A stretch of DNA of 64,000 nt from an uncultured Spartobacteria bacterium (GCA_903901425.1 CAIURC010000107.1:1-64000); one strand, 5' to 3'. Positions 7,741 through 31,551 are shown, numbered from the stretch's first letter. Notes: generated by a model from the letters alone, not told the origin. Program-made: numbers and translations.

Positions 7741-7858
7741 GGGGTTGAAAAACATTTTCACGCGGGTGAACTGGTTGCAATTTTAAAAGGCTAGGCATTG
7801 CAGGAATCCGCTTTTTATCGGATTCTTCGCTGGTTTCGGGACTCCGGTTTGCCTCCGT

Positions 7859-10800
7859 GTGCATTCTGGGCGCCTCTGGATTCGAAACCCTGCCTCCCCA
7901 TCGCATGTGCCCGGCAGAACAGCTCGCTTTTCCGCAGCTCACCTCCCCCGCGAGGCACCTCCTGTGAACGCCCATCCGGCTCCCAATTCCAACTCCATTC
8001 GAGAGAACCGGGTGCTGACCCTGTGGGACCCCAACCGCCCGGACGCCACCCTGAGCCTCCGTTTCCCGCCCCAAGACGAGCCACTCGATTCGGGATCTGG
8101 GATTTCGATGGAAAAATCTTATGTGCTCGGCCCGGTGGTCGCCCGGGGGGGGATGGGGCAGATCTTTTCCGCGTCCGATCCGCTCCTGGAACGGGAGGTG
8201 GCGATCAAGGTGAACACGGCCGCGGATCGGAGCGAGGACCCGCTTTTTTTGAGGGAAGCCCGGGTGCTGGCCCAGTTGGCGCATCCGAACATTGTGCCGA
8301 TCCACGATTTTGGGAAGAACGCGGGAGGCCAGCCGTTCTACTCGATGAAGCTGGTGCGGGGACAAACGCTGAAAGCGTTGCTTGAAGCGGTCCGCGCGGG
8401 AAAGACGCATGTTTCAACGGCAAACTTGCTCCTGATTTTCCGAAAAATTTGTGATGCGGTGGCGTTTGCGCATTCCCGCGGGTTCCTCCACCGCGACTTG
8501 AAGCCCGAGAATGTGATGCTGGGGGAATACGGGGAAGTGCTGGTGATGGACTGGGGATTGGCGCTCAGAATGAATGAGCGGGGGGCGGCCCCGGGCGTCA
8601 CGGAGGGGGAAACTCCACTGATTGAGGGAACTCCGCAGTATATGGCTCCCGAACAGGCGAATGGCGACACGCTGGATGTCCGCTCAGACGTTTACGCGTT
8701 GGGAGCCACACTGTACTCCCTCCTCAGCGGTCAGCTTCCCGTAACCGGCGCTACCCTCGAGGAGATCCTCGGGAAGGTGCGGCGCGGCGATGTGCTGGAC
8801 AAAGATCCAAGCCTTGCTCCGACACGAATCCCTCCAGGGCTGAGGGCGGTTATCACCAAAGCGACGGCGTTCCATCCTTACAACCGCTACCCAGATGTCT
8901 CCGGGCTTTTGGCAGATCTGGACGCGTATCTGGCCGGGTTCGCCACGGAAGCCGAGCATGCCGGGCTTTTTCGGCAGCTCCTGCTTCTGGTCCGGCGGCA
9001 CCGGATTGCGGCAGGATTGACGGCCATACTTCTGCTCACCGCAGCGGGATTCACGCTCAGCCTGATTGCAAGCCAGCGCCAATCCGCCCTGCACGCCCGC
9101 GATGCACAGGCGCAGTCCCAGCGGGCACGGGAAAACGAAAGCCGGGCCATCGGCAACGAGGAGCGTGCACTGGCCAGCGCACGCGCGGCGCGGCAATCGG
9201 CGGCGGAGGCGACACTGGCGCTGGCAGAAGTCGCAGAGGAAGGCGGGCACGGCGGCGAGTTGCAGCGGGCGCTCACGCGGGTCCCGGAAGAGTTCCGGAG
9301 CCAACTCTGGCGGTACATGCACGACCGCCTTGACAAGGCGGAACTCACCTTCCTGGCGAGTCACGCAAACCGGCCGTGGATGACATGCGCCGCCGACGCC
9401 TCCGGCCCGCACCATCTCCTGGCTTTGGATGAGGCCGGCCGCCTCGCATCCCTCGATCTGGTTTCAGGCACCCAGACCACCGTCTGCACCGTGCCCCCCG
9501 AAGGCCTCGAGGATCTCCTAGTCGTCTCGCCCGACGGCTCCCGCGTTGTTTTGGTCCGACTTGCCCCCGAAAATCCGAACACGTTCCGAATCGAGATGCT
9601 GGAACGCGCCACCGGGAAACTGCTCTGGACTCTCGACCTGCCTCGAGGCGAGGAAAGGTTCAAGCCCTCGTTGCCCGTCTTCGACAGAAGCGGTTGCGTC
9701 CTGATCATGAGCTCGCTCAGCGGGGGCGGTGTTTTGGCAGCCCATGCATGGACAGGCACCCTCCTGTGGCATGCCCCCGAGGAAGAACGGGCCACCGCTC
9801 AGTGCGCCGGAAAAACCGCCCAAGTTTTCGTCTACTCCATCCTCCGTGGCTATTCCCGCCGGGACCTGTGGACCGGTGCCGTCCTCCACTCTGCCCCAGA
9901 ACAGAAATTTCCGAGCGGTAATCTTTCAGGCACAAAAGTGTGTTACGACCCCTTCTCGCTGCAACTCTACTTTCAACACCGCGGAGCGATTCAACGGATG
10001 GACGGACGCTCCCTTGAAACCGCCAGCGCATGCCCCCTCCCGGGAGGCGCCCATTTCCTCGGTGACTTCACTCATCTCCCCCGCAGGAACGTTGTGGCGC
10101 TGCTCGTGCGCGAATCCGATGCCTCCTCCCGTTTACAGTTCTGGGATGCTCACAGCGGAACACTTCTTCGGGAGGTGCTCGGGCCCGGGTCGCGAGGAAA
10201 TTCCAACCGCTGGAATCTGTTTTCCACACCCGTCCCCGGCCAGGTCGCGCTGCTCCAAGGGCTCCGGATCAAGACATGGACCCTGCCCCGGGTCTCCCCC
10301 ACATGGCGCGCTTCGGTCGAGCCCGACGACTTTTTCGACTCCTTCGCCTTTCTGCAAGACCCGGATGCCGCCGCGGCCCTCTACCGGAAATGGTCGGGCC
10401 CCAACTGGTATACGGAAATTGGCGTGGTGGACATCCGCCACACCCCATCCGGTGCCCTCTCCGGCCGGTCTCTGAGCCCCAACCCGAACAAAAACAACAC
10501 GCGCGGGACCCTTTCCACCAACCGGGACGGCACCCTACTCGCCACGGTCCGGCACGACCCGGCCCAGAATAGTTTCGTGCTCCGCCTTTTTTCAGGCAGC
10601 CATGCCGAGAACCCGGGCCCCCAACTTCCACTTCCGGACTGGCACCGCGGCAGCGCCCATCTGAACCCCTCCGGCACCCGCGTCTGGCTGGGAACTGCCG
10701 TCTGGGAGGTTGCCTCCGGGAGTCTCCAGAAAATCCAACGCAATGGCCTGCTCCAGCCCCCGGAAAAGGCCCGGGCCCCGCGCTGGCTGGACGACTCACG

Positions 10801-16279: not shown

Positions 16280-17323
16280 TCACATCACCGGAATTTTCCG
16301 GTGCCACACGCACCGGAACGCGCCCCCGGCCCCATCCGGGTCCCGCAGAAACCGGCTGCGTTCAAGGTCTTCCGAGGCGCTTCGTTTCCAGAATCTTCGC
16401 GGGGAAACCGCCGGCGCATGCGCCTCCAAAAACTCCGTCTGGGTCTGGAAGCCACCGTGCTCCCAACCCAGCCCGGCAGCCCACGCATTGTAATCCGTAA
16501 AATTCACGTCTGCGGTCAGATCCTGCTGACCCACGTTCGCGTACACCTCAGTGCTCCGCTCCTGAAGCAGGTAGGCCCGGACCGTCCCACGGGGACGCCG
16601 CCGGTACAGTGCCGGAAACTCGTCCCCGTAATCCACCGCGAGGACCGAGCCACGGTGCAGAGCCGGAGCCCAGCCCAGCAGCCACTCCCGGGAGGCCCGG
16701 TGCAGCTCACAGCGCTGTCCTTCTGCCGCGCAGAACCTCAGCACCGAGTACGCATCGGCGGGTTCAACGCCAAGGGATTCAAGGAACTCCCTGGGCCGAC
16801 CGGCTCCGTCCCATTCGATCCAGATCTCCTGCCACCGACCCTCCCGCCATTCCACGCGGACCACCGGGAAGGCATCCAGAAGTTCATTGTGGAAGATGAG
16901 CGCTTCCCCGCCACAGGCCAGGAGCGCCTCCTCCATCGTGGTGTGCCATGTCACAGAACCGCCCAGAACCGCCTGCTGGCGTTTCCGCAAAACCGGCGAG
17001 GCTTCCACCAGATGCCAGTTCCACCGGCGCCGCTCCCAGAATCCCAGCTCCCTGCGAACCACCGCCGAGAGCTGACCGCCGCCAGGGCCTGCCTCAATCG
17101 CATTCCGGATTCCAGCATGAAACCGGCTTTCCCTCCGGAGCCATTCGGCGATTGCAACACCGAGATCCGGAGCCAGGGTGGCCGAGGTGGAGAAGTCCCC
17201 GCCGGGACCGACATCCCGGATCCGGCAGGTGTAATAACCGTGGTTCGGGTCGTACAGCGCCCTAGCCATGAACGCCTCAAAGGATTCGACCCGGACACCG
17301 GACTGGCCGGGTGCCTCAGCCAT
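16280..17323 (-). CDS. SAM-dependent methyltransferase, MidA/NDUFAF7 family
   Basis: FEAFMARALYDPNHGYYTCRIRDVGPGGDFSTSATLAPDLGVAIAEWL; AIEAGPGGGQL; ALIFHNELLDAFPVVRVEW. Confidence 0.87.
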   Translation of the reverse strand: MAEAPGQSGVRVESFEAFMARALYDPNHGYYTCRIRDVGPGGDFSTSATLAPDLGVAIAEWLRRESRFHAGIRNAIEAGPGGGQLSAVVRRELGFWERRRWNWHLVEASPVLRKRQQAVLGGSVTWHTTMEEALLACGGEALIFHNELLDAFPVVRVEWREGRWQEIWIEWDGAGRPREFLESLGVEPADAYSVLRFCAAEGQRCELHRASREWLLGWAPALHRGSVLAVDYGDEFPALYRRRPRGTVRAYLLQERSTEVYANVGQQDLTADVNFTDYNAWAAGLGWEHGGFQTQTEFLEAHAPAVSPRRFWKRSASEDLERSRFLRDPDGAGGAFRCVWHRKIPVM

Positions 17324-17861
17324 GGAGCCGGGCAGGCGTGATCTCAATCGAAAGGCGGCCGTTGCCCACATAGAGGGCACCATCCTGCACCGTGACCTGA
17401 AGCACCATGGTCCGCTCAGCCAGAGTCGCGAGGGACTCGACCTGTTCATCGAAAATCCGCCAGGCCTGGACGTTCCGGACCCGCGCCAGTTTTCCCGCCA
17501 AAGCCGCCCACCACGACTCGGGTCCGAACGAGTAGATGGTGACCTGGTCGGCTCGCGCAGCCGCGCGGAGAATCTTGCGTTCGTCCGGCTGGCCCACTTC
17601 GATCCAGTGGGCGATCCGGCCAGTAAGATCGTTCTGAATCAGAGCTGGAAGATCGGGATCCCAAAGGTCCTGCGTCAGTTCCAGCGGGGTGCGGTCCCCC
17701 GGATCCGCCACATGCAGGGCGTAAGCCAGGAGGCGGATCATCATGCGTTCGTCCGTCTCGGACGGATGCCGGGCAAGGACGACCGGGAACGTCTCGTAAA
17801 CATGGCGGTCCATGTCCGAGAGTTCGAGCGTGGCTTTGTAAACGGTGGCTTTGAGGCCCAT
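17316..17861 (-). CDS. yaeQ: YaeQ family protein
   Basis: [50 protein letters not shown]...[20 protein letters not shown]. Confidence 0.92.
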
Positions 17862-18015: not shown

Positions 18016-18726
18016 ATGAGCATCCATCTCCACGCCCAGAAAGGCGATGTAGCCGAAACCGTCCTCCTGCCCGGTGACCCGCTGCGAGCCCGGTTCATCG
18101 CAGAGCGCTACCTGGAACGCGTGACATGTTACAACGAGGTCCGCGGGATGCTGGGTTTTACGGGATTTTACAAGGGCCACCGGGTCTCGGTGCAGGGTAC
18201 TGGCATGGGCGTCCCCTCCATCAGCATTTACGCAAGCGAACTCATCACCGAGTTCGGGGCCCGCCAACTCATCCGGGTCGGCACCTGCGGCGGGATGCAA
18301 CCCCATGTCCAGGTCCGCGACCTGGTCCTGGCGCTGACTTCCTCCACCGATTCCAGCCTCAACCGGAACACGTTTGGCGGCGTCGATTTCGCACCCCCGG
18401 CCAGTTACCGGCTCCTGCGTGCAGCCGCAGACTGCGCGGCCCGGCTGAACCTCACCACGCATGTGGGCTCAATTTTCACCTCAGACATTTTTTACCGGGA
18501 AGACCGTTCCCTGACCGATCGCCTGATCCAGCACGGAGTGCTGGCAGTGGAAATGGAGACCTCGGCGCTTTACACGCTCGCGGCACGGCACAACATCGAG
18601 GCGCTGACCGTCCTCACCGTGAGCGACCATCTCATTTCAGGCGAATCCGTTTCCGCGGCGGACCGTCAATCGTCGTTCACGGGAATGATGGAGGTCGCTC
18701 TGGAAACCGCAGTGGGTGAGTCCTAG
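18016..18726 (+). CDS. deoD: Purine-nucleoside phosphorylase
   Basis: [34 protein letters not shown]...[19 protein letters not shown]...[11 protein letters not shown]...SDHLISGE. Confidence 0.95.
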
Positions 18727-20669
18727 ATCTGCGCCCGGAGCTCACCAGCGTCTGAGGCCGGACGCGGCTCGAGATCAGACCAAGTCTGTGTGTCGGGCCG
18801 ATCGGCCCCGGCCTTGACCGTGTACCGGCCTGGTGCATAGACCCGCGGCTGAAACCGGTCACCCGCAGCGCGGACCGTGTAAAGAATCTCTTGGGTCTCC
18901 TGACGGATCACCTGGACCACGCCGTTTTTCGGGAAGACCACTGTGGGCAGATATCCAACGGGCTTGCGTCCGTCATTGTCCGCCTGAGTGATTGTGATGG
19001 GCCAACCGGGAAACTGACCCTTGTCACCCTCCGCCACCTTGGCAAACCGCGGCCAGCATTCGAACGTGATCTTCCGCGTCTTCTTGTGGAACCGGATGAG
19101 GCCGTATCCGTCAGCACGTTTTTTCTCGTCCTTCATGTCCTCGGGATTGGCATAAGCGTGCATGCTCATCCGGTTGCCCAAGCCATCAAGGAACTCGCCG
19201 GTCCACGGCAACGGACTGCCGGGCACAGTATTCGGCCCGGCCTTTTCGTCTACCGGATGCCACCAGCGACCGTAGATGGTGTTGACCAGAGCTGGGCTGG
19301 TGAAGTTGAAGGGCCCATCGCCAAACTGCTCAATCCCGTGCTGGACCACCACCGCAAGATGCTGGTCCCCGCACAGATGCGGCGCCCACGCTTTCCGGAT
19401 CTCCACCAGCGCGCGGTTCCGCCCCGCCTGTGGCCACCCGTTGCAATCCAGATCGGCAAGGAGCCTCTGGTCATGCCCCCCGTGCATATGCACCGCCCCG
19501 CAAAATGCCGTCGCCGACAGCACGCATTTCATCTCCGCCCCTCGCCCGTAGTCCTGGCCCCAGTCGCGCAGGAACTTTTCCTGACGCTCCCCAAGAAGCT
19601 GCAATCCCGGAAGATCCACGCTTTTTGGGTCGTACGCAGGGTCGTTGATGTGGTCCGGACGCGGCCCCATCTGCGGAATTTTTCCAGCTGGCCCACTCTT
19701 AAATTTGCGGTCCTCAAGGATGGCAAAGTCGATGCCGCCCACGAGCATCCGGGTGAAATACACACCGACATCACGGCTGACCGGCGCGGAGTCCACAGGG
19801 TCGGGCAAATGCCAGCTCTGCTGCCGTTGGACCTGGTTGACATACGCCACCGGGTACCGAAACCCGCCGTCGGCGTCCCCCGGGATGTGCGACTGTGCCC
19901 CGGCCTCTCCCCAGAGATTTCCGTGCCCCACATCGTGATCATCGGGAATGCATACCGTGGGGCGGTCACGGATGATGTCGCGGAACTGGAGCCCGAACTC
20001 GATCCAGCCGGCGGTATGCTCGGTGTGCCGGTAATGCTGGTCGCCTCCAAAGAACAACACGTCAGGATCCTGTGCCCGGAGGTTCTCCACAATCTCCGTG
20101 CGCGGCCCCGTGGTCCGGCTCGAGTTGCAGCTCATGTTCGCCACGACGATCTCCTCCTTCTCCACAGGATCCCGCCGGATCACCCCTTCAAACCGCGCTT
20201 TTGCGCCATGCAACACCCGGTAGCCCACGGTTTTCGAACCGTCCCAGCCTTCTACTCGGAAATGAGCGTCCCAGCCCGGATACAGGACCGGGCTCCTCGC
20301 AATTTCCTGCCATGTTCCGTCACCCCGCTTCACCTCCAGCCGCGCCACCCGTTCCTCGCCGGGTTTGAGCGGAAACAGCTGGGCGCTCATCTTCAAGACC
20401 CCATTCTGCTGCGTGTAATACGCAAAACACACCACCTCGTCCCTCGGCACATCCATGGAAAGAATCTGCGGTTGAGCCCCTTTCGCGGCCTTCTTTGGCT
20501 CTGCGCCCGCCTTCTTCCACCATTCCCCCGTCGTCAGAGACTCCAGTTGGGGAAACTCTGCGGAAAACGGCGCTTCAAACCCAGGTTCGGCAGCCAGAGC
20601 CTGCACCATGCCGCGCCGCCAAAAAAGCAACGGGGCCAGTTTGAGAAGAAATCGACGCGATATGTTCAT
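18723..20669 (-). CDS. PhoD-like alkaline phosphatase / metallophosphatase, secreted
   Basis: [19 protein letters not shown] leader; [54 protein letters not shown]. Confidence 0.85.
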
Positions 20670-20749
20670 GGACGGCAGGGGGGATGGATGAATCCGCCAC
20701 GGCATCCTCCTCCACAATGGGGGGAACAGTCCGGGCCGATCTTCTAAAC

Positions 20750-22040
20750 TCCAGCCACAGCAAATAGTTTCAAAAAAACAGCCGGATTGATCGAATCATT
20801 GGGATCTAACCACCTGCCCGGGGAGCACGGCGCCTCAGAGTCCACGCTGTCTTGAGGCACACCATCCGGAGCCGCACTGGCCCCGTGCAGCGGCCTTGTC
20901 CAGCCATGCGTCCCACGTTGTTCCAACCCAGGAATTGCGCACTGCCCCCCGTGGACCGCTTTACTCCCCAGCGCATCCGCCCCCCGCTTCCCCCAGCAAC
21001 TCCATCACGGGCTCCCGATGGGATTAGAGCCCGCAGCCAGCAGTGGAGCGCCCCGCGCCATTCCGCCCGGAGTATCTCATGTGTCTTGAGATGGAGAGTG
21101 GCATCGTTTAAGGTTTGAAGCGTCCGTTTTTCATGCCGCGCCGCGAGCTTACTCATCCTCATCAAGTGCACGGCTGGCTCCAGATTTGGAGGCAACAATT
21201 GCATCAAACCGCTTCCATGGTTTTGATTGACCCTGCAGCGCTTCTTTGGCCGGCGGGCCAAAAAGGCATCAAATCGGGATTGCCCGAACACATCATGGAT
21301 GCCGACCCGGTGACTAACTCCGACGAACTGGCGTGGCTGTGTTACCAAGCCCTCATCGGTAGCGAGTTCGAACAAAAGCATGGATCGCACGTCCACCTCA
21401 TGCCCTTCTCTGTGCCCACCGAGTTGCCTGCGGGATGGAAAGAGCGGGCCTCCACGGGATCTTCCGCCTCACCGTCACGGCCCCTCATCCAGCGGATCTC
21501 CTCGCCATCCGAAACCCCGCCGGGACAAGCGTCGCGACCGGCAAGCATGCTGCCTCGGCACGCCGACACGGATTGATCTAGCCCCGGAGAGAACGCCTTC
21601 CCACCCATGAACCGCCTTCTGTATCAAGACGAAGCCCGACTTGAGTATGGAAGGCGTTTCTGGCGGGACCCAGAGCGGAACGCGGGCCTGCTTGCCCCCT
21701 GGCTGGATGCGTGCCATCCCCACCGCGATCGTTTTGTTGAGCGCAGGCAACCCTTGGTGGATCGGGCGCTCTCCTACCCTGCCGGAAGCGATGATGCGCT
21801 GGATGCCGCCCCACAATCCGAAGGATTGAACCTTCGCGTGGTGGTGAAAGAAATCCCCCCGTGTTCGGAAGCTTTCGGGCGTAGGCCAGATCCAGTGCAT
21901 TCGTGTCAGACCTTGACTTTGACACGCCCTCCTAATGCGGGTTTATCAATTTTAATCCTGTGAGCCCAAGGTGCCTTAGCCCCTTTCCACAGAAAACTTA
22001 ATAAGTGGACATTCGATTTGAGAAGTTTTTAAGTTTTATT
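20750..22040. other. Region with no convincing intact CDS; overlapping short ORFs on both strands (degenerate or unknown content)
   Basis: Only short ORFs without recognisable domains; sits at the boundary to the lower-GC segment that begins about 21.9 kb. Confidence 0.45.
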
Positions 22041-22057
22041 ACTTATTTTACAAGCCC

Positions 22058-23659
22058 ATGCACCGCTCCCTTTTGCGCGTCATCACCCTGCTCGGCGTCA
22101 TCTTGCTGATGCCTAAAATTGGCAATGGAGAGCAGGCACCCCCACGCACGGCTCTGGTGATGGGGGTGGGGGATTATGGCGGGGCAAAATTCAAGGGCAG
22201 AACCATCCCAAACCTGCCAGGCATCACCACGGCTGACCTTCCAAGAATGGAGGCCAAGCTGAAGTCGCTAGGTTTCACGGTTGCGGTGGTGAGCAATCCC
22301 ACGCTGAGTCAAGCAAAGGAGGCAGTGGATGCTTTCTCGGCGCGAATCAAGGTCAATCCTGGCGTTTCACTCTTCTACTTCAGCGGCCACGGCGGTGAGT
22401 ATGAGGGAAAAAACTACCTGATCCCTCGCGGCGCAAACATCGGCAGCAAGGCAGACTTGAGCGATGAGGCCCTCAGCGCACAGCGGGTGCTCAACGGCAT
22501 GGAGGAGAGCGGTGCCCGAATAAATCTGGTCTTCTTGGACTGCTGCAGGGAGGATTTGGGGAAAGGCGCGGGCGGGGCGGAAATGGCTCCGCTAAAAGCA
22601 AAGGGAAGTTTCATCGGCTTTGCCACGCGCAGCGGGAACTTTGCCGATACGGGCGAGGACGGCAGTCCATACACGCGATTTTTGCTCAAGCACATGGATA
22701 AACCGGGACTGAGCGTTGCAGATATGTATTCCATGGTGATCGGGGATGTGAAGGAATTCAGCAGGCGGGTGCTGGGGGAGGAACGGCGGCCAGGGTTTTA
22801 CTCGGAACTAGACGCGCCATTTTACTTGGCACCAACTGCAGCCTCTCGATCTTTACCAATGACAAAACCTTTGCTCCCCTTAAAACCGTTGGAATCTGGC
22901 ACGATTTTCAATAGCTTAGGAATGAAGTTTGTTTCCGTACCAAGCACAGACGTACTCATTTGCAGCACCGAGACGCGCGTTCGTGATTACAAAGTCTTCA
23001 TCGCTGAAACCCGATACGACATGAGCGGTTCCGCTCAAACTCTGGCGCAGGATGGCTGGCAACGGCGTGAAGGACAGAACTGGCTGCGGCCGGGTTTCAA
23101 CCAAACAGATGACCATCCGGTCACCTGTGTGAGCTGGGACGATGCGCAGGCATTCTGCAGGTGGCTCAGCCGGAAAGAAGGGCGGAACTATCGGCTGCCT
23201 ACGGACCATGAGTGGAGCCTGGCCGTGGGCATTGGCGACCGTGAATCTTCAACAGAAGCGCCTACCACCAAAGATGAGAAAATCATCGCCTACCCCTGGG
23301 GACGTGGTTTTCCTCCGATGCTCAAGGATGGCAACTATCGCGGCACTGAGAGCCGTCTTGGTGCGGAGCCAAGCAATTGGACAACACTTATTGACGTCAA
23401 TGATGGATTTCCCCGGACTGCTCCGGTGGGAAGCTTCGCGCCTAGTGTCCATGGTCTATACGACCTCGGTGGCAACGTCTGGGAGTGGTGTGCGGATTGG
23501 CATGATCCCGCCGAGCCTATCTGCCGTGTGTTGCGCGGCGGCTCGTGGGCGAGCAGCCAGTCTATCAGCATGCTCTCTTCCATGCGCCTGATTGGTGGGT
23601 CGCCAGAAACACGCCGTAGTGACATCGGTTTCCGTTGCGCGCTGGAGCCAGCCCCCTGA
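22058..23659 (+). CDS. Secreted caspase-family (C14/metacaspase-like) protease fused to FGE-sulfatase/SUMF1-like domain
   Basis: Signal peptide; VMGVGDYGG, LFYFSGHGGEYEGKNYLIPRGA (His), LVFLDCCRED (Cys); SUMF1-like PVTCVSWDDAQAFCRWLSRKEGRNYRLPTDHEW, GLYDLGGNVWEWCADW, RVLRGGSW. Confidence 0.93.
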   Translation: MHRSLLRVITLLGVILLMPKIGNGEQAPPRTALVMGVGDYGGAKFKGRTIPNLPGITTADLPRMEAKLKSLGFTVAVVSNPTLSQAKEAVDAFSARIKVNPGVSLFYFSGHGGEYEGKNYLIPRGANIGSKADLSDEALSAQRVLNGMEESGARINLVFLDCCREDLGKGAGGAEMAPLKAKGSFIGFATRSGNFADTGEDGSPYTRFLLKHMDKPGLSVADMYSMVIGDVKEFSRRVLGEERRPGFYSELDAPFYLAPTAASRSLPMTKPLLPLKPLESGTIFNSLGMKFVSVPSTDVLICSTETRVRDYKVFIAETRYDMSGSAQTLAQDGWQRREGQNWLRPGFNQTDDHPVTCVSWDDAQAFCRWLSRKEGRNYRLPTDHEWSLAVGIGDRESSTEAPTTKDEKIIAYPWGRGFPPMLKDGNYRGTESRLGAEPSNWTTLIDVNDGFPRTAPVGSFAPSVHGLYDLGGNVWEWCADWHDPAEPICRVLRGGSWASSQSISMLSSMRLIGGSPETRRSDIGFRCALEPAP

Positions 23660-23677
23660 AAACGCCCTCTCCTTTTT

Positions 23678-25105
23678 ATGTCCCTGCCATTCACATCGTC
23701 CATCGCTAGCCTGATTGTCGGTCTTGGGTTGTTTTTTTCCAATGCAAGCGCCATCGGAGAGGATCGCACCTACTCTGGCAAAGTTGGCGCACAGGACGCT
23801 ATCTTCACCCTTCGTTGGCAGGACGACAGTGTTGTAACGGGCTCCTATTTTTGCCCATCGGGAAAACGCATCAGCTACGAGCTGCGCGGAGAGAACCAAA
23901 CCGCCGGCCGTTTGAACTTGGATGAATACACCCATGGCCAACTCACCGCCAAAATTGTCCTGCTAAAAGCCGGTGACACGGGCAAGATCACTTGGCAGGG
24001 CATGATATACAATCTCGACGGCCGCAGTCTGCCTGTCTCGTTCACCCGCACCATCTCCATTCCTGTACCAAAAACCTCTGCGGTCTCAGCGAGCAGTCGT
24101 TTATACCTCGCGGTCTGGAACCGCACCCGGTTCACCTGCATGCTAGACTGGAATAAAGATGGCACGGTACGCGGAATTATGAGCGAACCTTCCACGGGCG
24201 AATCCACGCAGATCGAAGGAAAAAATCCAAAGGAAGGCCTCCTCCGTCTGAATTGGCTTCGCAAAGGTGAGCTTGAAAGCTTGGAGCTCAATAAATCTCT
24301 CACCTCCAGAGGAATCGTCTGGCAGGGTGTACTCTCCAGTGGTGAGCCATTCATCTTGGCCCGTTTTCGTAATGGTGGTGCGCCAGCTCAGGCATCCGAA
24401 ACTTACGAACAAGTACGCGTCATTGTGGCACCGCGAACCGACTGGCCTGCCCCGCCATTCCAAGGGAAAAACCTAAGTAACGCGGCATTCAGGGCAGAAC
24501 TCAGAAGGAAAGCAGCTGATGAAACGGACATATATCTGGTCAAAGCGGCGATTGAGTCCGTTTCAAAAACTCATGGTACGCTGCACCTTCACTTCCGCGC
24601 CTTGGCGTTTGATAATGACTATGACAAAATGCACTACATTCCTTCCCTTGAGCATTTCTCATTCAGCGTACCCACCCTTGCTGAACCTGGCTCTTTCAAC
24701 GTCGGAGACCAGTGTTTTGTAAGCGTTGACAAAAAAGGCACTGTTTTTGGAGTTAGCCTTGGGGCCGCTGCCATTACTCATTGGCGAAAACGAGCCGATG
24801 GCTACGTGGAGGTGCTAACAGCCCATAATCGCGGCATGGAGACCGGCACAGCAGTTTCTCGTGAGTATTTACCAGACCGTCTCGATCTGAATGACGGTTC
24901 AGGAGGACAACCTATCCCGCGTGATCTCTATTTCACTCCGAGTTTCGGGTTGGTTCTGCATGTCGAGATGGCAGGTCCTGGCGAGATGGAACTGGAATCC
25001 CTCCCTCCTCAAAAAGGGGACGTAGAAAAGCTTTGGATTTTAGAGGAAAAGCAAGGCGGCAGGCAGGCTATTCCGCTTGCACAGCGCGCTTACGATGCAG
25101 GCTAA
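23678..25105 (+). CDS. Hypothetical secreted protein with two tandem homologous about 90-aa domains and a unique C-terminal domain
   Basis: Signal peptide; RTYSGKVGAQDAIFTLRWQDDSVVTGSYF...GKITWQGMIYNLDGRSLPVSFTR aligns with RLYLAVWNRTRFTCMLDWNKDGTVRGIM...SRGIVWQGVLSSGEPFILARFR. Confidence 0.85.
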   Translation: MSLPFTSSIASLIVGLGLFFSNASAIGEDRTYSGKVGAQDAIFTLRWQDDSVVTGSYFCPSGKRISYELRGENQTAGRLNLDEYTHGQLTAKIVLLKAGDTGKITWQGMIYNLDGRSLPVSFTRTISIPVPKTSAVSASSRLYLAVWNRTRFTCMLDWNKDGTVRGIMSEPSTGESTQIEGKNPKEGLLRLNWLRKGELESLELNKSLTSRGIVWQGVLSSGEPFILARFRNGGAPAQASETYEQVRVIVAPRTDWPAPPFQGKNLSNAAFRAELRRKAADETDIYLVKAAIESVSKTHGTLHLHFRALAFDNDYDKMHYIPSLEHFSFSVPTLAEPGSFNVGDQCFVSVDKKGTVFGVSLGAAAITHWRKRADGYVEVLTAHNRGMETGTAVSREYLPDRLDLNDGSGGQPIPRDLYFTPSFGLVLHVEMAGPGEMELESLPPQKGDVEKLWILEEKQGGRQAIPLAQRAYDAG

Positions 25106-25452
25106 GGATTCCCAAACCTTGCCTCCCTCGTGCAAACCCGCCCAGACGAGAAGTGCAAGCAGGCATAGGAGAGTTTGAAACTCCCAGACGGAAGCCAAAC
25201 CGTCGTTCTGCCAGACAATCCCGGCAATCTCCCTCCGCGGCATGGAAAGACACCGTGGAGCGCGACCCTGCTCACCGAATGCCGCGCGGTCCTACTCCGC
25301 ACGAAGTTCGGATTTTTCCGCCAGGTCACCTCCACATTTCTGGCTATCTTTGCCCTAGCGCGTCAGCTTCCGGCAGGACCGCATCCCTCCCACCCGGCGA
25401 TCTCGATCGAGCGCTCGGAAATACTGCCCCCCACCGCTTTTACCGGTCCGGC

Positions 25453-28400
25453 TCAGCGCCTCTCGCCGGCCCACTGGAACAGGTTCCGGATCAAACGCTG
25501 GTACTCGGGAAGTTCGTGCGCACGGCCATCGTGTCCGAGCGTGATGCAGGCGATCCGGGACTTGGGATGCTCCACCAGCCACACCTGCGGGAACACCTCG
25601 CCCGTTGCCGGGCTTTTCGCCTGCGCCAGCACCGTGATCTTTGCACCCTCCGGGTCCGGCTTGAAATGGTAGAGTTCGTCCGTGACACGGAACGTCTTGG
25701 GAAGCCCCTCCATGAGCGGGTGTCCCGGCTGAACCACTTCGACCTCAAACTCGCCCAACCGATCATGCCCGCGGGCTCCGCCCCCGACAATCTGTCGGTT
25801 CCACTCCGGGAAGCTCTTCCAAGCGTACCACGTGCCGGGATGCATCAGAACCATGCCTTTTCCAGCTGCCGCAAAATCCATCAGGGCGCGCCGTGTCTGG
25901 CTGGAAATCGGCTGGTTCGCGCTCCAACCCAGCACATCCAACCGGCTCAGCACCGCATGCACGCCATTCGCATTCTGGGTGTAGTCGACCCAGCCCCGGC
26001 CGGACAGAGTTCCCTTGTCCGCTCCACCGAACCATTTTGCGAAATCATGTGAACTGCCGCCTCCCACCAGCAGGACCCTCGGACCTGCCGCTTCAACCGA
26101 AGGCTCCGGCACGGGATCACTGAACTGCGCCACAAATCCCGGATCCTCTGTGCTTCCCGGATTCGTTGGGCCCGCATTTTTTGCGGACTTCGGCTCAGGC
26201 GCAGCAGTCGCGGAACTGCTGGTCTCGGCCCATTCGGCGGTGATGGCTGCCAGGGTTGCCGCTGCGCTGGGATTCACGCTCTCAAGTACGATCTTTTCCA
26301 CCAAGCCACCGCGTGCGAGGGGTTTGCTGAACCAGCGGATCTGATGGTTTTGGAGGAGACCGTCGACATACTTCGACGCTGGGACATCGATCCGGCGGTA
26401 ATAGTCCGAGAACTCGACGCCATTTCGGAAAACGAACCGTTCCTTTCCGCCTCCGGTGTACTCGACCGTGACAGCCATGAGGTCTGACGGGTCACCACTT
26501 TGGTACCCCCAGCCTGTCACGCCGCCGAGGAAATGGAGGCGGTTCGCCTTGAACCCGCCCACGCGGAGTTCGACTTTTTCGGGCAGCGTGCTCGCGTAGC
26601 TTCCGCGCGGCCCGCCCCGCAGCACAACCAGATTCTTCCCCCCGGCCACCTTGGCAGGGTCCACGACAGCAAACGGAACCCCTTCCACCTGTTGGGTCCC
26701 GAATTTCTTAAAAGGCAACGTGTCGCCCTTGTGCTCCACCGATTGGTAGAGCCCGTTGCGGCTGTCGGCGGTGAACGCGTTGCGCAGGTCCAATAGCCGG
26801 AACCGGCTGGCATCCCCCCCGCAGAGGTAGGCCAGAAGGTCGCGCAACGATTCTGCGCCCAACCCCTCGAACCCTTCCGGCATCAACGAACGCCCGGTGT
26901 TCACCTTGGCCTTGATCGCCACAGTCTTCACCTCCTCGATCCCCGCAGGCCCCTTCAAAGTCACTGCCCCGGGATTTTCGCGAACAATGATTCCGGAATG
27001 GAACTGGCCGTCCTTGGTTTCCAAGTTCCATGTCACAAAACTCGGATCCACCTCCCGGTTTGGATCGAGGATGTGCACCAGCAGTTCCGCCGGCCCGTGC
27101 GAACCCATGCCCGTCAACGCCGGCCCGACTTCCGCGCCGGTTTCGCCGAGCTTGTGACACACCGCGCAGGCACTTCCGAAAACCTGTTTTCCCTTGGCCT
27201 CATCGCCCGGCTTTTCGACCTCCGGCGTCAACTTTGCGATCAGGTCGTTCTTGGCTTTTGCAGCCGGCCCGAGCAACTGGTCCAGCATTGCGTTCGCCCG
27301 CGTGGCCACCGCCTTGTCCGGATGCGCGCGCAACCGACCCACGTTCACCGGCCCAATCATCGACGCGTTCACTTGGTTCGCCTGGATCGCGTCCAGCAAC
27401 GCAAGAGCCCAAGGACCGCGCTGCAGCAACACCCCAAACGCCGCGGACTGTCCTTCCACCGTCAACTTGCCATACGCTCCAGCCACCATTTTGCCCACCG
27501 GCAAAGCTCCCGTCTCACCCAGCAGCGTCACCAGTTCCGCCTGGAGTTTTTCCGCCCCGAGCGCCGCAGCCAACACCTTCTCCAGATCCTCGCTCCGGCC
27601 CAACCCAAGCAGGTTCCGAGCCGCAGCCACCCGGGCCGGACCGGCAGCGCCCGCGTCCTGCAGGGTCGCAACCAGACGCGCCGCACCGGCCCCCACTTCG
27701 GCAGACAGCCGACCGTGCTTGTCCCATGCGGCTGCCAGAGGAAGGGCACTGGGCCCGTTCGGCCCGCCCAAAAGCGTTTTCAGGGACTGCGCCAGCGCCT
27801 CATCCAGTTCCGGCACCTCCTTCAAAGCGCGGCCCAATTCCTCAAGCACCACTGCGCCCACCCGAGCCCCCCCGCCGGGTGCCGCCGCGACTGTCCGCAC
27901 CAAGGCGGCGGCGGAGGCCAGCATCTTTTTCTCGCCGATTCCCATCGCCAACTGGCCTACCAGAGGACGCAGCGCATCGGGATTCGCCGCTCCCAGCGCC
28001 GCCCCAATGGTCGCCTCCGGCCGGCTCATCGCGGCGCCCACCGCCGCGCTTCTCTGGAAATCATCGTCCAGAAGAGGCCACGCTGCCACCAGATCCCGGG
28101 CGCCCTCTTCATCCAGACCAGCCACAGCCAAGGCCCGGAGCCCTGCCACGCGGACCTGAGGATCGCTGTCTTTTAGCAGGGCGCGCAATCCGGCCCCCAC
28201 GCGCTCCTGTCCGACAGGGGCACCCGTTTTTTCCTCCACCAACAGCGCTGCATTCCGGCGGACCTCCGGAGAAGGATCCGTGAGAGCGACCTGCATCCTT
28301 TCAGAAGTGAGCCCGCCCATCCGGTGCAACGCCCACAGTGCTGCCAATCGGGTCAGGGGCTCGGGATTTTTGAGACGTGCCGACACCGCGTCGGCTGCGG

Positions 28401-30624
28401 ACGGTTTGTCTGCCAGCAACTGCACCGCCATCAGACGCACAGCCCGGTTGGGGTGTTCGAGAGCGGCAGCGAGTTCACCATCCCCCGCCCGGCTCAGATC
28501 CGGCACTGGCACAGCACGGGCCGCCTTGTGGTTCACCCGCCAGATCCGGCCGAAATAATGGTCCCGGTCTGGACGGACCGCCGCATTCACGTCGTTGTGG
28601 TCCGGTCCGCGGGTGTCGTTATGGATAACGGCTTGGTTGTAGAAGTCCGCGATGTACATCGCGCCGTCCGGTCCCACACGGACCTCGATGGGACGCCACC
28701 ACATGTCCTTGGACCGGATGAACTCGGTTTCCTCGCGCCCCGGCAGCTTGTTGGCGGAATAGCTCGCACCCTCCCGCTGAAGCCGTTGATGATGGACAAT
28801 GTTGATCGTGGGTTCGGTGGTGAAATAGTCGCCCGCGTATTCGGCGGGCCAGGTGCCACCGTCGTAGACCACGCAGCCTGCTGCGGCCGTGAACGAGCCT
28901 ACGAAGTCAATCTGGACGTAGGCCATCTGTTCCCAGGTCATTGCCGGGAAGGATTTGGGGGACCGGATCACCTGTTTAAAACTCGTCTGAGTGCCGACCT
29001 TGCCCCGGGCCAGCGCGGCCTCAGGCAGCACCGTGTGGAGGAGCAGCACCCCGCTGGTGGGCTGGGTCCAGAAAACCCGGTTGTCTCCCGTCACTGTCAG
29101 TCCCCAGGTGTTTCCCCCCCTCGAACTGTACTGTTCAAATGCGGAGCCGTCAGGGCGGAATCGGACGACGCCGGAACCGATCACGCCAAAGTCACGCTGT
29201 CCGTCCCCGCTGAGCACATGCTGCGAGCTACTGTACCCGTGGGTCGCGTACACCCAGCCGTCCCAGCCCATCCGGGGATTGTTGATGACCGCGTGCGTGT
29301 CCCGCGTTCCCAAACCCGTGTAGAGTTTCTCCACCCGGTCACAGCGCCCGTCCTTGTCGGTGTCCCGCAGCCAGAGCACATCCGGCGCCTGCGTCACAAT
29401 CACGCCGTCCTTGTAAAAGACGAGCCCAGTCACCAGATCCAGCCCTTCATGGAACACCGCACGCTGGTCCATGACGCCGTCGCCATTTGTGTCCGTCAAA
29501 ATGCTGATCTTGTCCCGGGCCGGCCGTTCCTGCTGGCCGGGTTTCGGATCCACGCCGCCATGGTCCTTCCACTCCTTGCCCCGGTAATCCGGCCGCATCC
29601 CGCGGCGGCCGTTGGGATACTCGGGCGTTTCCGCTACCCAGAGGCGGCCTGCAGCATCCCAGTCAAAGTTGATGGGCTTGCTCAGAAGCGGCTCGGCTGC
29701 CACGAGTTTCAGATCAAAATCCGGGTGCACCTCCAGATTGCTCTGCGTCTGTTCGGGGCGCTGCGGACCGCCCTCCGGATAGGTCAGCGCCGCGATTTCC
29801 TCGGGCCGGGCGAATCCATCCAATGCGGCATCGCGTTTCCCCGCCCACGCAATTCCGCGGAGCAGAAGCGCCCGAAAATGGGGCTTTTCGAAGGTGCCAT
29901 ACAGGTGGCCCGGGATGCTCACAAAAGCCCGGTAGGGTTCGGTGCCGCCTTCGAGTTTCCGTTCGTACACCCACATCTGCGGCTGGATGTCGTAAATGTG
30001 GGCCCGGCCGCCCTCGGCCTCCTTTTTGCCGTCCCGGACCCGGGGGGTGTAGGAAGTCGCCAGAACCCGGATCTCGGGGGAAAGATCCATGTCATAATAA
30101 ATCTCGTCATTGAGATGGAAGTTGGAGGCGCCCCGGGTGATGGGGTGTCCGCCTTCGAGCCACTGGTTTTCGGTGTAGTAAAGGTCCATGGGGCCTTCTT
30201 TCCACCGGGTCCTGCCGGGAACCCATGCGCCGCCGATCACGGACTTCCACCAGGGCGGATCGTTGGAGACGGAGGCGGTGTGGATCACCACGAGCCCCCC
30301 CCCTTTTTTGAGGAACGCATCCAGAGCGGTTTTCTGGGAATCGGTAGCGTTGCCACCGTCCTGGGCATACATCACCAGCACATCGGTCTGCTGCAATTGC
30401 GCGGCATCGGGCCAGTCCATGGCGCCTTCGACACGCATCCCGCGCTCCGTCAGCAAACGCTTCCAGTCGTTCAGAAAACGCTCGTGCTCATGGGCGTTGG
30501 GGCCGTGCGTTTTGCGACCGCCCCGGAGGAAGATCCGGAGAGGTTCCGCAGCATCCACAACGGCGGACCCCAGCGGTCCAAGGAGAAACGCCAGTACGAC
30601 ACACAGGGGAAACGTGATTTTCAT
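25453..30624 (-). CDS. Giant PVC-type membrane-bound dehydrogenase/cytochrome c protein: ThuA - beta-propeller - HEAT - CxxCH heme - ThuA
   Basis: Signal peptide; N-terminal ThuA-like GGGLVVIHTASVSNDPPWWKSVIGG; VHPDFDLKLVAAEPLLSKPINFDWDAAGRLWVAETPEYPNG; HEAT-like Ala-rich repeats; GKQVFGSACAVCHKLGETGAEVGPALTG; C-terminal second ThuA (GKGMVLMHPGTWYAWKSFPEWNRQIVGGGARGHD). Confidence 0.9.
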   Translation of the reverse strand: MKITFPLCVVLAFLLGPLGSAVVDAAEPLRIFLRGGRKTHGPNAHEHERFLNDWKRLLTERGMRVEGAMDWPDAAQLQQTDVLVMYAQDGGNATDSQKTALDAFLKKGGGLVVIHTASVSNDPPWWKSVIGGAWVPGRTRWKEGPMDLYYTENQWLEGGHPITRGASNFHLNDEIYYDMDLSPEIRVLATSYTPRVRDGKKEAEGGRAHIYDIQPQMWVYERKLEGGTEPYRAFVSIPGHLYGTFEKPHFRALLLRGIAWAGKRDAALDGFARPEEIAALTYPEGGPQRPEQTQSNLEVHPDFDLKLVAAEPLLSKPINFDWDAAGRLWVAETPEYPNGRRGMRPDYRGKEWKDHGGVDPKPGQQERPARDKISILTDTNGDGVMDQRAVFHEGLDLVTGLVFYKDGVIVTQAPDVLWLRDTDKDGRCDRVEKLYTGLGTRDTHAVINNPRMGWDGWVYATHGYSSSQHVLSGDGQRDFGVIGSGVVRFRPDGSAFEQYSSRGGNTWGLTVTGDNRVFWTQPTSGVLLLHTVLPEAALARGKVGTQTSFKQVIRSPKSFPAMTWEQMAYVQIDFVGSFTAAAGCVVYDGGTWPAEYAGDYFTTEPTINIVHHQRLQREGASYSANKLPGREETEFIRSKDMWWRPIEVRVGPDGAMYIADFYNQAVIHNDTRGPDHNDVNAAVRPDRDHYFGRIWRVNHKAARAVPVPDLSRAGDGELAAALEHPNRAVRLMAVQLLADKPSAADAVSARLKNPEPLTRLAALWALHRMGGLTSERMQVALTDPSPEVRRNAALLVEEKTGAPVGQERVGAGLRALLKDSDPQVRVAGLRALAVAGLDEEGARDLVAAWPLLDDDFQRSAAVGAAMSRPEATIGAALGAANPDALRPLVGQLAMGIGEKKMLASAAALVRTVAAAPGGGARVGAVVLEELGRALKEVPELDEALAQSLKTLLGGPNGPSALPLAAAWDKHGRLSAEVGAGAARLVATLQDAGAAGPARVAAARNLLGLGRSEDLEKVLAAALGAEKLQAELVTLLGETGALPVGKMVAGAYGKLTVEGQSAAFGVLLQRGPWALALLDAIQANQVNASMIGPVNVGRLRAHPDKAVATRANAMLDQLLGPAAKAKNDLIAKLTPEVEKPGDEAKGKQVFGSACAVCHKLGETGAEVGPALTGMGSHGPAELLVHILDPNREVDPSFVTWNLETKDGQFHSGIIVRENPGAVTLKGPAGIEEVKTVAIKAKVNTGRSLMPEGFEGLGAESLRDLLAYLCGGDASRFRLLDLRNAFTADSRNGLYQSVEHKGDTLPFKKFGTQQVEGVPFAVVDPAKVAGGKNLVVLRGGPRGSYASTLPEKVELRVGGFKANRLHFLGGVTGWGYQSGDPSDLMAVTVEYTGGGKERFVFRNGVEFSDYYRRIDVPASKYVDGLLQNHQIRWFSKPLARGGLVEKIVLESVNPSAAATLAAITAEWAETSSSATAAPEPKSAKNAGPTNPGSTEDPGFVAQFSDPVPEPSVEAAGPRVLLVGGGSSHDFAKWFGGADKGTLSGRGWVDYTQNANGVHAVLSRLDVLGWSANQPISSQTRRALMDFAAAGKGMVLMHPGTWYAWKSFPEWNRQIVGGGARGHDRLGEFEVEVVQPGHPLMEGLPKTFRVTDELYHFKPDPEGAKITVLAQAKSPATGEVFPQVWLVEHPKSRIACITLGHDGRAHELPEYQRLIRNLFQWAGERR

Positions 30625-30708
30625 AGGTCCAAGGATTGCGTGGCCACCGGCGGCGAATTGACACGGCCGGGGGTTGTGAGGAGTCTGACAGCAAGAGTCA
30701 ACGGCTCC

Positions 30709-31551
30709 ATGCCCAGAAAGCACCTCCCCCTATCCGAGACGCACATCATGGGCGCAGACACCCGCGAGATCCGGGTCACCGCCCAGGACTGTCCCGCGCT
30801 TGCCCTGCACCATATCGCGCATGTGGGCGTGGCCTGTGCCGTTGCCCCCTATGAAATGGTGCGCATGGATCTTTCGGGCACCTACCTGCTCTCGTGCAGT
30901 GCCGGGGCCGGCCAGATCTTTCTGGACGGCCGCTGGCAGGCGTGCCGGGAAGGGTGGGCCTGCCTCGCACCACCGCATGCGCTGCTGGCCTTCCACGCCG
31001 ACAAAGGAGCGCCGTGGGAGTTCAGCTGGGTCCGGTACCTGCAGCCGCCTGACCAGAAACCCCTCATTTCCTCATCCTCACCGGCACTGGCCAAGTTTGA
31101 TCCCGCGCCACTCCGGGCCGCGGTACAAGGACTGCACGCCGAGATTCAGAGCCAGTTGGCACCAGCCACGGTGAGTCACTGGGTCGAGATCCTCCACACG
31201 TACGTGCTCCGGTTTGCCCGGCCCTGGCACACCGACGACCGGCTCGGGCACCTCTGGGAATTCGTCTCCACACGACTCTCGGAACCGTGGTCCCTGGAAC
31301 GCCTCGCCCAACGCTGCCACCTGAGCACCGAACACCTGCGCCGGCTCTGCCGAAAGGAACTTGGCCGGAGCCCGATGCACCAGGTGATCTTCCTTAGGAT
31401 GCAGCTCGCCGCACGGCTCCTGTCCACCACCACCGACAAGATCGAGACCATCGCAGGGGCCGTCGGCTACGAGAACCCATTTGTGTTCTCCACCACGTTC
31501 AAAAAATGGGTCGGCTGGCGCCCCAGCGATTACCGGGCACGGAAACCCTGA
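30709..31551 (+). CDS. AraC family transcriptional regulator
   Basis: C-terminal HTH: LSEPWSLERLAQRCHLSTEHLRRLCRKELGRSPMHQVIFLRMQLAARLLSTTTDKIETIAGAVGYENPFVFSTTFKKWVGWRPSDYRA. The ORF track start at 28324 is artefactual. Confidence 0.94.
   Translation: MPRKHLPLSETHIMGADTREIRVTAQDCPALALHHIAHVGVACAVAPYEMVRMDLSGTYLLSCSAGAGQIFLDGRWQACREGWACLAPPHALLAFHADKGAPWEFSWVRYLQPPDQKPLISSSSPALAKFDPAPLRAAVQGLHAEIQSQLAPATVSHWVEILHTYVLRFARPWHTDDRLGHLWEFVSTRLSEPWSLERLAQRCHLSTEHLRRLCRKELGRSPMHQVIFLRMQLAARLLSTTTDKIETIAGAVGYENPFVFSTTFKKWVGWRPSDYRARKP

Follow-up and report, generated by a model that had tools for sequence, protein, structure and literature searches.

Secreted caspases are common in bacteria, but, to our knowledge, little has been established about what triggers them and which partners they have. 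Two adjacent genes in the 64-kb window (the whole stretch of DNA that was analysed, from an uncultured Spartobacteria bacterium) raise the question of whether such a protease is encoded here together with its partner, and whether the two were acquired from elsewhere as a foreign-looking pair, as a sequence-only reading had proposed. The answer we prefer, at a probability of about one half, is that a secreted caspase-FGE protease and a separate double-barrel sensor or adaptor work as one system.

The two genes and their products

The first gene (22058–23659, + strand; 533 aa), identified by ORF call and Pfam, and the second (23678–25105, + strand; 475 aa) are separated by 18 bp (23660–23677), with no terminator-like site on the + strand of this gap. 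The coordinates, shared strand and spacing are as originally read, and so is the presence of Sec-type signal peptides on both proteins (aa 1–~25 in the first), which we took by eye from the hydrophobic N-termini, with no predictor. No obvious Shine-Dalgarno sequence is seen at either gene, and scans of the locus for promoters and terminators yielded no more than about the chance level. The left flank (20718–22057, no strand assigned) had been described as degenerate, and our results agree: it has no recognisable gene, no Pfam match beyond a single sub-threshold one to a leader peptide, no copy elsewhere in its own genome, and a match in one of three same-genus genomes over a 47-bp stretch and nothing more. 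It appears to be non-coding or decayed, and its AT-rich last ~100 bp probably hold the promoter. On the other side of the pair, 25453–30723 on the − strand encodes a 1756-aa protein with ThuA, DUF7133, HEAT and cytochrome c domains, of an ordinary large Verrucomicrobiota/Planctomycetota type.

The first protein matches Pfam Peptidase C14 at aa 30–256 (22145–22825, + strand; E 2e-23) and FGE-sulfatase at aa 303–528 (22964–23641, + strand; E 2.4e-42). Its His111 (codon 22388–22390) and Cys163 (codon 22544–22546, both + strand) line up with the motifs GHG and LDxC in the paracaspase MALT1, the sole solved structural neighbour of the caspase part at the threshold used, and the His-Cys dyad is intact. 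From the domain and the dyad we predict a caspase-type protease, which its N-terminus suggests is secreted. The C-terminal domain, of C-type-lectin fold, has SUMF2 (1y4j) and formylglycine-generating enzymes (FGE) as its best solved matches and closest solved relatives but is without the FGE cysteine pair: the window protein has Ser-Ser (SWASSQSIS) where the bacterial FGE 2q17 has Cys-Cys (SYLCHDSYC). Because both active-site cysteines are replaced by serine, this domain is most likely a catalytically inactive, ligand-binding one. In PADLOC the pair matched a generic caspase model only (E 2e-9), with no match for the partner.

The partner, for which neither Pfam nor NCBIfam gave a match above the cut-off, consists of two copies of a ~95-aa domain, at aa 29–125 (23762–24052) and, in diverged form, at aa ~140–232 (24095–24373), followed by a C-terminal region of ~240 aa (aa 236–475; 24383–25102; all on the + strand). 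Comparison with relatives from the same taxonomic order marks aa 29–125 as a mobile domain. Its model, built from a ten-sequence alignment, has a pLDDT of 93.8 and eight antiparallel strands, and the top Foldseek matches in the PDB (E 2.3e-3) are rhizavidin, agroavidin and streptavidin; nitrobindins and a lipocalin rank lower. The predicted eight-stranded barrel and a short motif, VTGxY...Y.L.G, are held in common with the avidin family (PF01382; rhizavidin, streptavidin), but the TM score is only about 0.6 and the identity to the listed avidins roughly 8–17%. Pfam Avidin is the best weak match (E 0.0059), in one of ten barrel copies and not in the window copy; hhalign against streptavidin gave a probability of 33% over 33 residues only; and a viral structure library gave nothing significant, its top entry being a pithovirus avidin-family protein (E 0.017). 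Avidin-like refers here to the predicted fold of the barrel; it may belong to the avidin family, and it may bind biotin. In the partial library of literature that we searched, we found no avidin-like domain associated with Verrucomicrobia and no avidin fold with a caspase, and the words avidin and lipocalin are absent from two eLife papers (PMC7159879, PMC8195603). The model of the full-length partner, from two sequences, has a pLDDT of 50 and is unusable past aa ~230. The C-terminal 240 aa were seen in one relative only, which is also the single full-length one (L082:6905–8371, from a marine Verrucomicrobiales MAG; 27% identity over the whole length, E 3e-43).

The double barrel in other genomes

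In 1353 genome searches, which overlap, and a contig scan, several tens of proteins proved to carry the barrel domain. A first genome-contig scan with the whole partner as query gave nothing; the scan with an alignment of the barrel domain gave five loci. Proteins composed of a signal peptide, a C14 domain and two barrels are present in two species of genus g297 (L143:9727–11358 and L167:467–1942) and are 65% identical over their full length, and in a third species of the genus (L170) the barrel part only, 74% identical, is present, the protein being cut by the contig edge. The window caspase and these fused caspases are only 28–31% identical, so the two associations of a caspase with the barrel probably arose separately. 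Other barrels are fused to Trypsin_2 (L072), to YARHG (L095), to DUF3298/PdaC (L144, with L145 similar) and, as a pair, to a marginal Peptidase_M48 match (L094). At least three species of a single genus have TIR_2, a hydrophobic segment and two barrels in one protein (L074:9343–10857, L078:9126–10643 and, by close likeness to these, L075:8309–9805), and L073 has the same arrangement with one barrel copy. PADLOC gives a ThsB (TIR-like) match for L074. The commonest form of the barrel is a small lone secreted protein or lipoprotein without an effector nearby.

Relatives fuse the double barrel to a caspase, and others fuse the barrel to a TIR domain, a trypsin or a metalloprotease. It is therefore probably a previously undescribed part that serves such effectors for sensing or docking; a more general role at the envelope is possible, because most copies stand alone without an effector nearby. 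The recurrent pairing with caspase genes that had been anticipated is found as fusion (L143, L167) and not as neighbourhood. No caspase is seen among the neighbours examined of the full-length relative L082, whose genome has 14 C14 genes elsewhere, and there is no separate caspase gene near the barrel at the other domain-bearing loci examined. The separate pair of caspase and partner did not recur in the genome searches and was seen once. We estimate the probability of a barrel lying next to a caspase by chance among the ~40 loci as roughly 0.1.

How the pair may work

The pair would form an extracytoplasmic protease system, in which the caspase-FGE protein is a secreted protease with an FGE-like domain that binds a ligand, and the partner, with its two avidin-like barrels and C-terminal domain, acts after secretion as a receptor or adaptor. 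At the cell envelope the barrels most likely recognise a ligand or a second protein, either recruiting the caspase to it or keeping the caspase inactive until the ligand arrives. Secretion, physical interaction, ligand binding, activation and any role in defence are what we infer from the features described above. In other Verrucomicrobiota the barrel would do so in cis, forming the tail of the effector itself (caspase, trypsin, M48 protease or membrane-anchored TIR protein), and the TIR-double-barrel proteins are candidate envelope-sensing TIR effectors. More tentatively, the barrel might be an extracytoplasmic effector-associated domain of Verrucomicrobiota at large, a single sensing or assembly module serving the caspase, trypsin, M48 and TIR effectors, acting in cis in most lineages but in trans in the window. 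It would then correspond, on the envelope side, to the effector-associated domains that bacterial conflict systems have in the cytoplasm. With one small domain found repeatedly on or next to effectors of the caspase, trypsin, M48 and TIR types, there is a tangible starting point for identifying the ligand of that domain, and the caspase-barrel fusions are a place to measure ligand-controlled protease activity directly.

The strongest support for the pair is the caspase-double-barrel fusion; its weakest points are that the pair was seen once and that the barrel is often alone. These last two observations are what would be expected if the genes were incidental neighbours, the caspase-FGE gene being one more of the genus set and the partner an unrelated envelope protein that landed beside it. 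The two genes also differ in GC content (0.570 and 0.527), and flanking synteny is lost even beside a gene that is 67–69% identical in the same-genus genome G002. Against this, the genes are 18 bp apart on the same strand, both products are apparently secreted, and caspases were joined to double barrels independently in g297; we regard chance adjacency as possible but not probable. Adjacent, co-directed genes for two apparently secreted proteins would also suit a protease with a dedicated substrate or inhibitor, the caspase cleaving the partner, with freed barrels that signal, or the partner blocking the caspase, and small calycin-type beta-barrels do include protease inhibitors. This we consider unlikely: the barrel is carried by four unrelated types of effector, among them three peptidases that differ in catalytic class, and a caspase-specific inhibitor or substrate would not explain its presence on all four. 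The earlier proposal of a protease with a partner is strengthened by the fusions (L143, L167), though pairing as neighbouring genes did not recur in the searches, and of the roles it had suggested, inhibitor or substrate would fit the fusions less well than sensor or adaptor.

Origin of the genes and their relatives under a retroelement

Contig C71, from the same genome, has two genes that match the caspase domain of the window gene with 76% and 62% protein identity, and a gene from another genome of the genus does so with 74%; the DNA identities are 73%, 66% and 72%, respectively. The similarity in DNA starts past the signal peptide and stops sharply at nt 770, the boundary of the C14 domain, and the FGE part cannot be aligned as DNA to these relatives. 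Because the DNA similarity is confined to the caspase domain, we take the caspase-FGE gene for a probable chimera of domains that was assembled within the genus. The caspase domain itself appears to be native to the genus, since its closest relatives sit in this genome and in another of the genus.

The lower GC and different codon flavour attributed to both genes belong mainly to the partner. The GC content dips to 0.52–0.57 across 22–25 kb against ~0.61 around it, and the baseline for ORFs of the same genome is 0.612 ± 0.027 (76 ORFs, from the window and about 56 kb of three contigs, one of which, L010, overlaps the window end by 4 kb; the codon baseline is the same). The partner (GC 0.527, GC3 0.540) is ~3 SD under this baseline and has the lowest GC of the set, whereas the caspase-FGE gene (GC 0.570, GC3 0.633) is only ~1.5 SD under it, a value as low as that reached by other baseline ORFs. 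The length-corrected codon-usage distance is ordinary for the caspase-FGE gene (z 1.1) but unusual for the partner (z 4.8); nine sampled ORFs are more extreme than the partner, three of them being caspase-FGE siblings on C71.

Signs of mobility were also sought. There is no tRNA in the 64-kb window, no flanking repeats resembling an element were seen, none of the scanned ORFs matched an integrase or transposase, and comparison with plasmids gave no match. The neighbouring gene at 18723–20717 has the 67–69% identical relative in G002 mentioned above, and no other neighbours are common to the two loci, so that no empty insertion site can be defined. Recent acquisition of both genes as an island from a distant donor would accommodate their lower GC, the atypical codon use of the partner, its absence from the genus genomes searched and the non-coding left flank, but with a caspase domain that appears genus-native by the DNA identities of 73% (C71) and 72% (same genus) that end at nt 770, with ordinary codon usage in the caspase gene and with no mobile-element signature in the scanned stretches, we rejected whole-island transfer as very unlikely. 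The horizontal acquisition proposed for the pair finds no support in the case of the caspase. For the partner, which was not found in three same-genus genomes or in the other relatives searched and is low in GC, an origin outside the genus is plausible, if unproven.

Proteins combining C14 and FGE-sulfatase domains have been known since 2012 as bacterial metacaspase-FGE proteins (Asplund-Samuelsson et al. 2012, PMC3501461); in the searched text of that paper the FGE domain is given for 33 (4.9%) of the surveyed prokaryotic metacaspase sequences, and Verrucomicrobia are not mentioned. The window gene has the same two domains but has lost the FGE cysteines and is followed by the double-barrel gene. 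Variable proteins of cyanobacterial diversity-generating retroelements (DGRs) carry orthocaspase-like N-terminal peptidase domains (PMC7517822), and FGE has been described as a DGR-controlled subtype of the CLec fold that has trypsin and caspase effectors in its neighbourhood (PMC10907252). DGR sensors and conflict systems (PMC10907252, PMC7517822, PMC7159879) share the caspase, trypsin and TIR effector classes with the barrel and caspase loci described here. In contrast to DGR-diversified systems, the window gene has no template repeat, the unit has no NTPase, MoxR or vWA, and the proteins are apparently secreted.

A DGR is present in the same genome, on contig C71 (L008:4282–19414, equivalent to C71:79281–94413). 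It comprises four caspase-FGE genes, an HRDC-domain accessory gene (L008:6299–6772), a reverse transcriptase (L008:6769–7764; RVT_1, E 6.8e-16) and, at the 3' end of the latter, a template repeat of 133 bp (L008:7748–7880), and the variable repeats of the four targets lie at L008 6069, 10571, 16845 and 19276. The variable repeats differ from the template at template adenines in 71 of 83 cases; the remaining 12 are three C-to-T differences in each of the four copies. The window gene was considered as a further target and rejected, there being no template for 23400–23659 in the 96%-complete genome. In G002 (contig C62), two caspase-FGE genes (L041:5099–6778 and 7781–9544) have near-identical 3' ends flanking divergent stretches, a pattern that fits the expectation for DGR targets; no reverse transcriptase or template was found in the 16-kb stretch examined. 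In each of these two genomes an OmpA-domain gene immediately precedes a caspase-FGE gene (L008:8500–9015 and L041:7199–7768), and further putative OmpA-like ORFs lie at L008:14822–15247 and 16980–17660; the OmpA-domain product may be a partner that anchors the DGR targets to the envelope.
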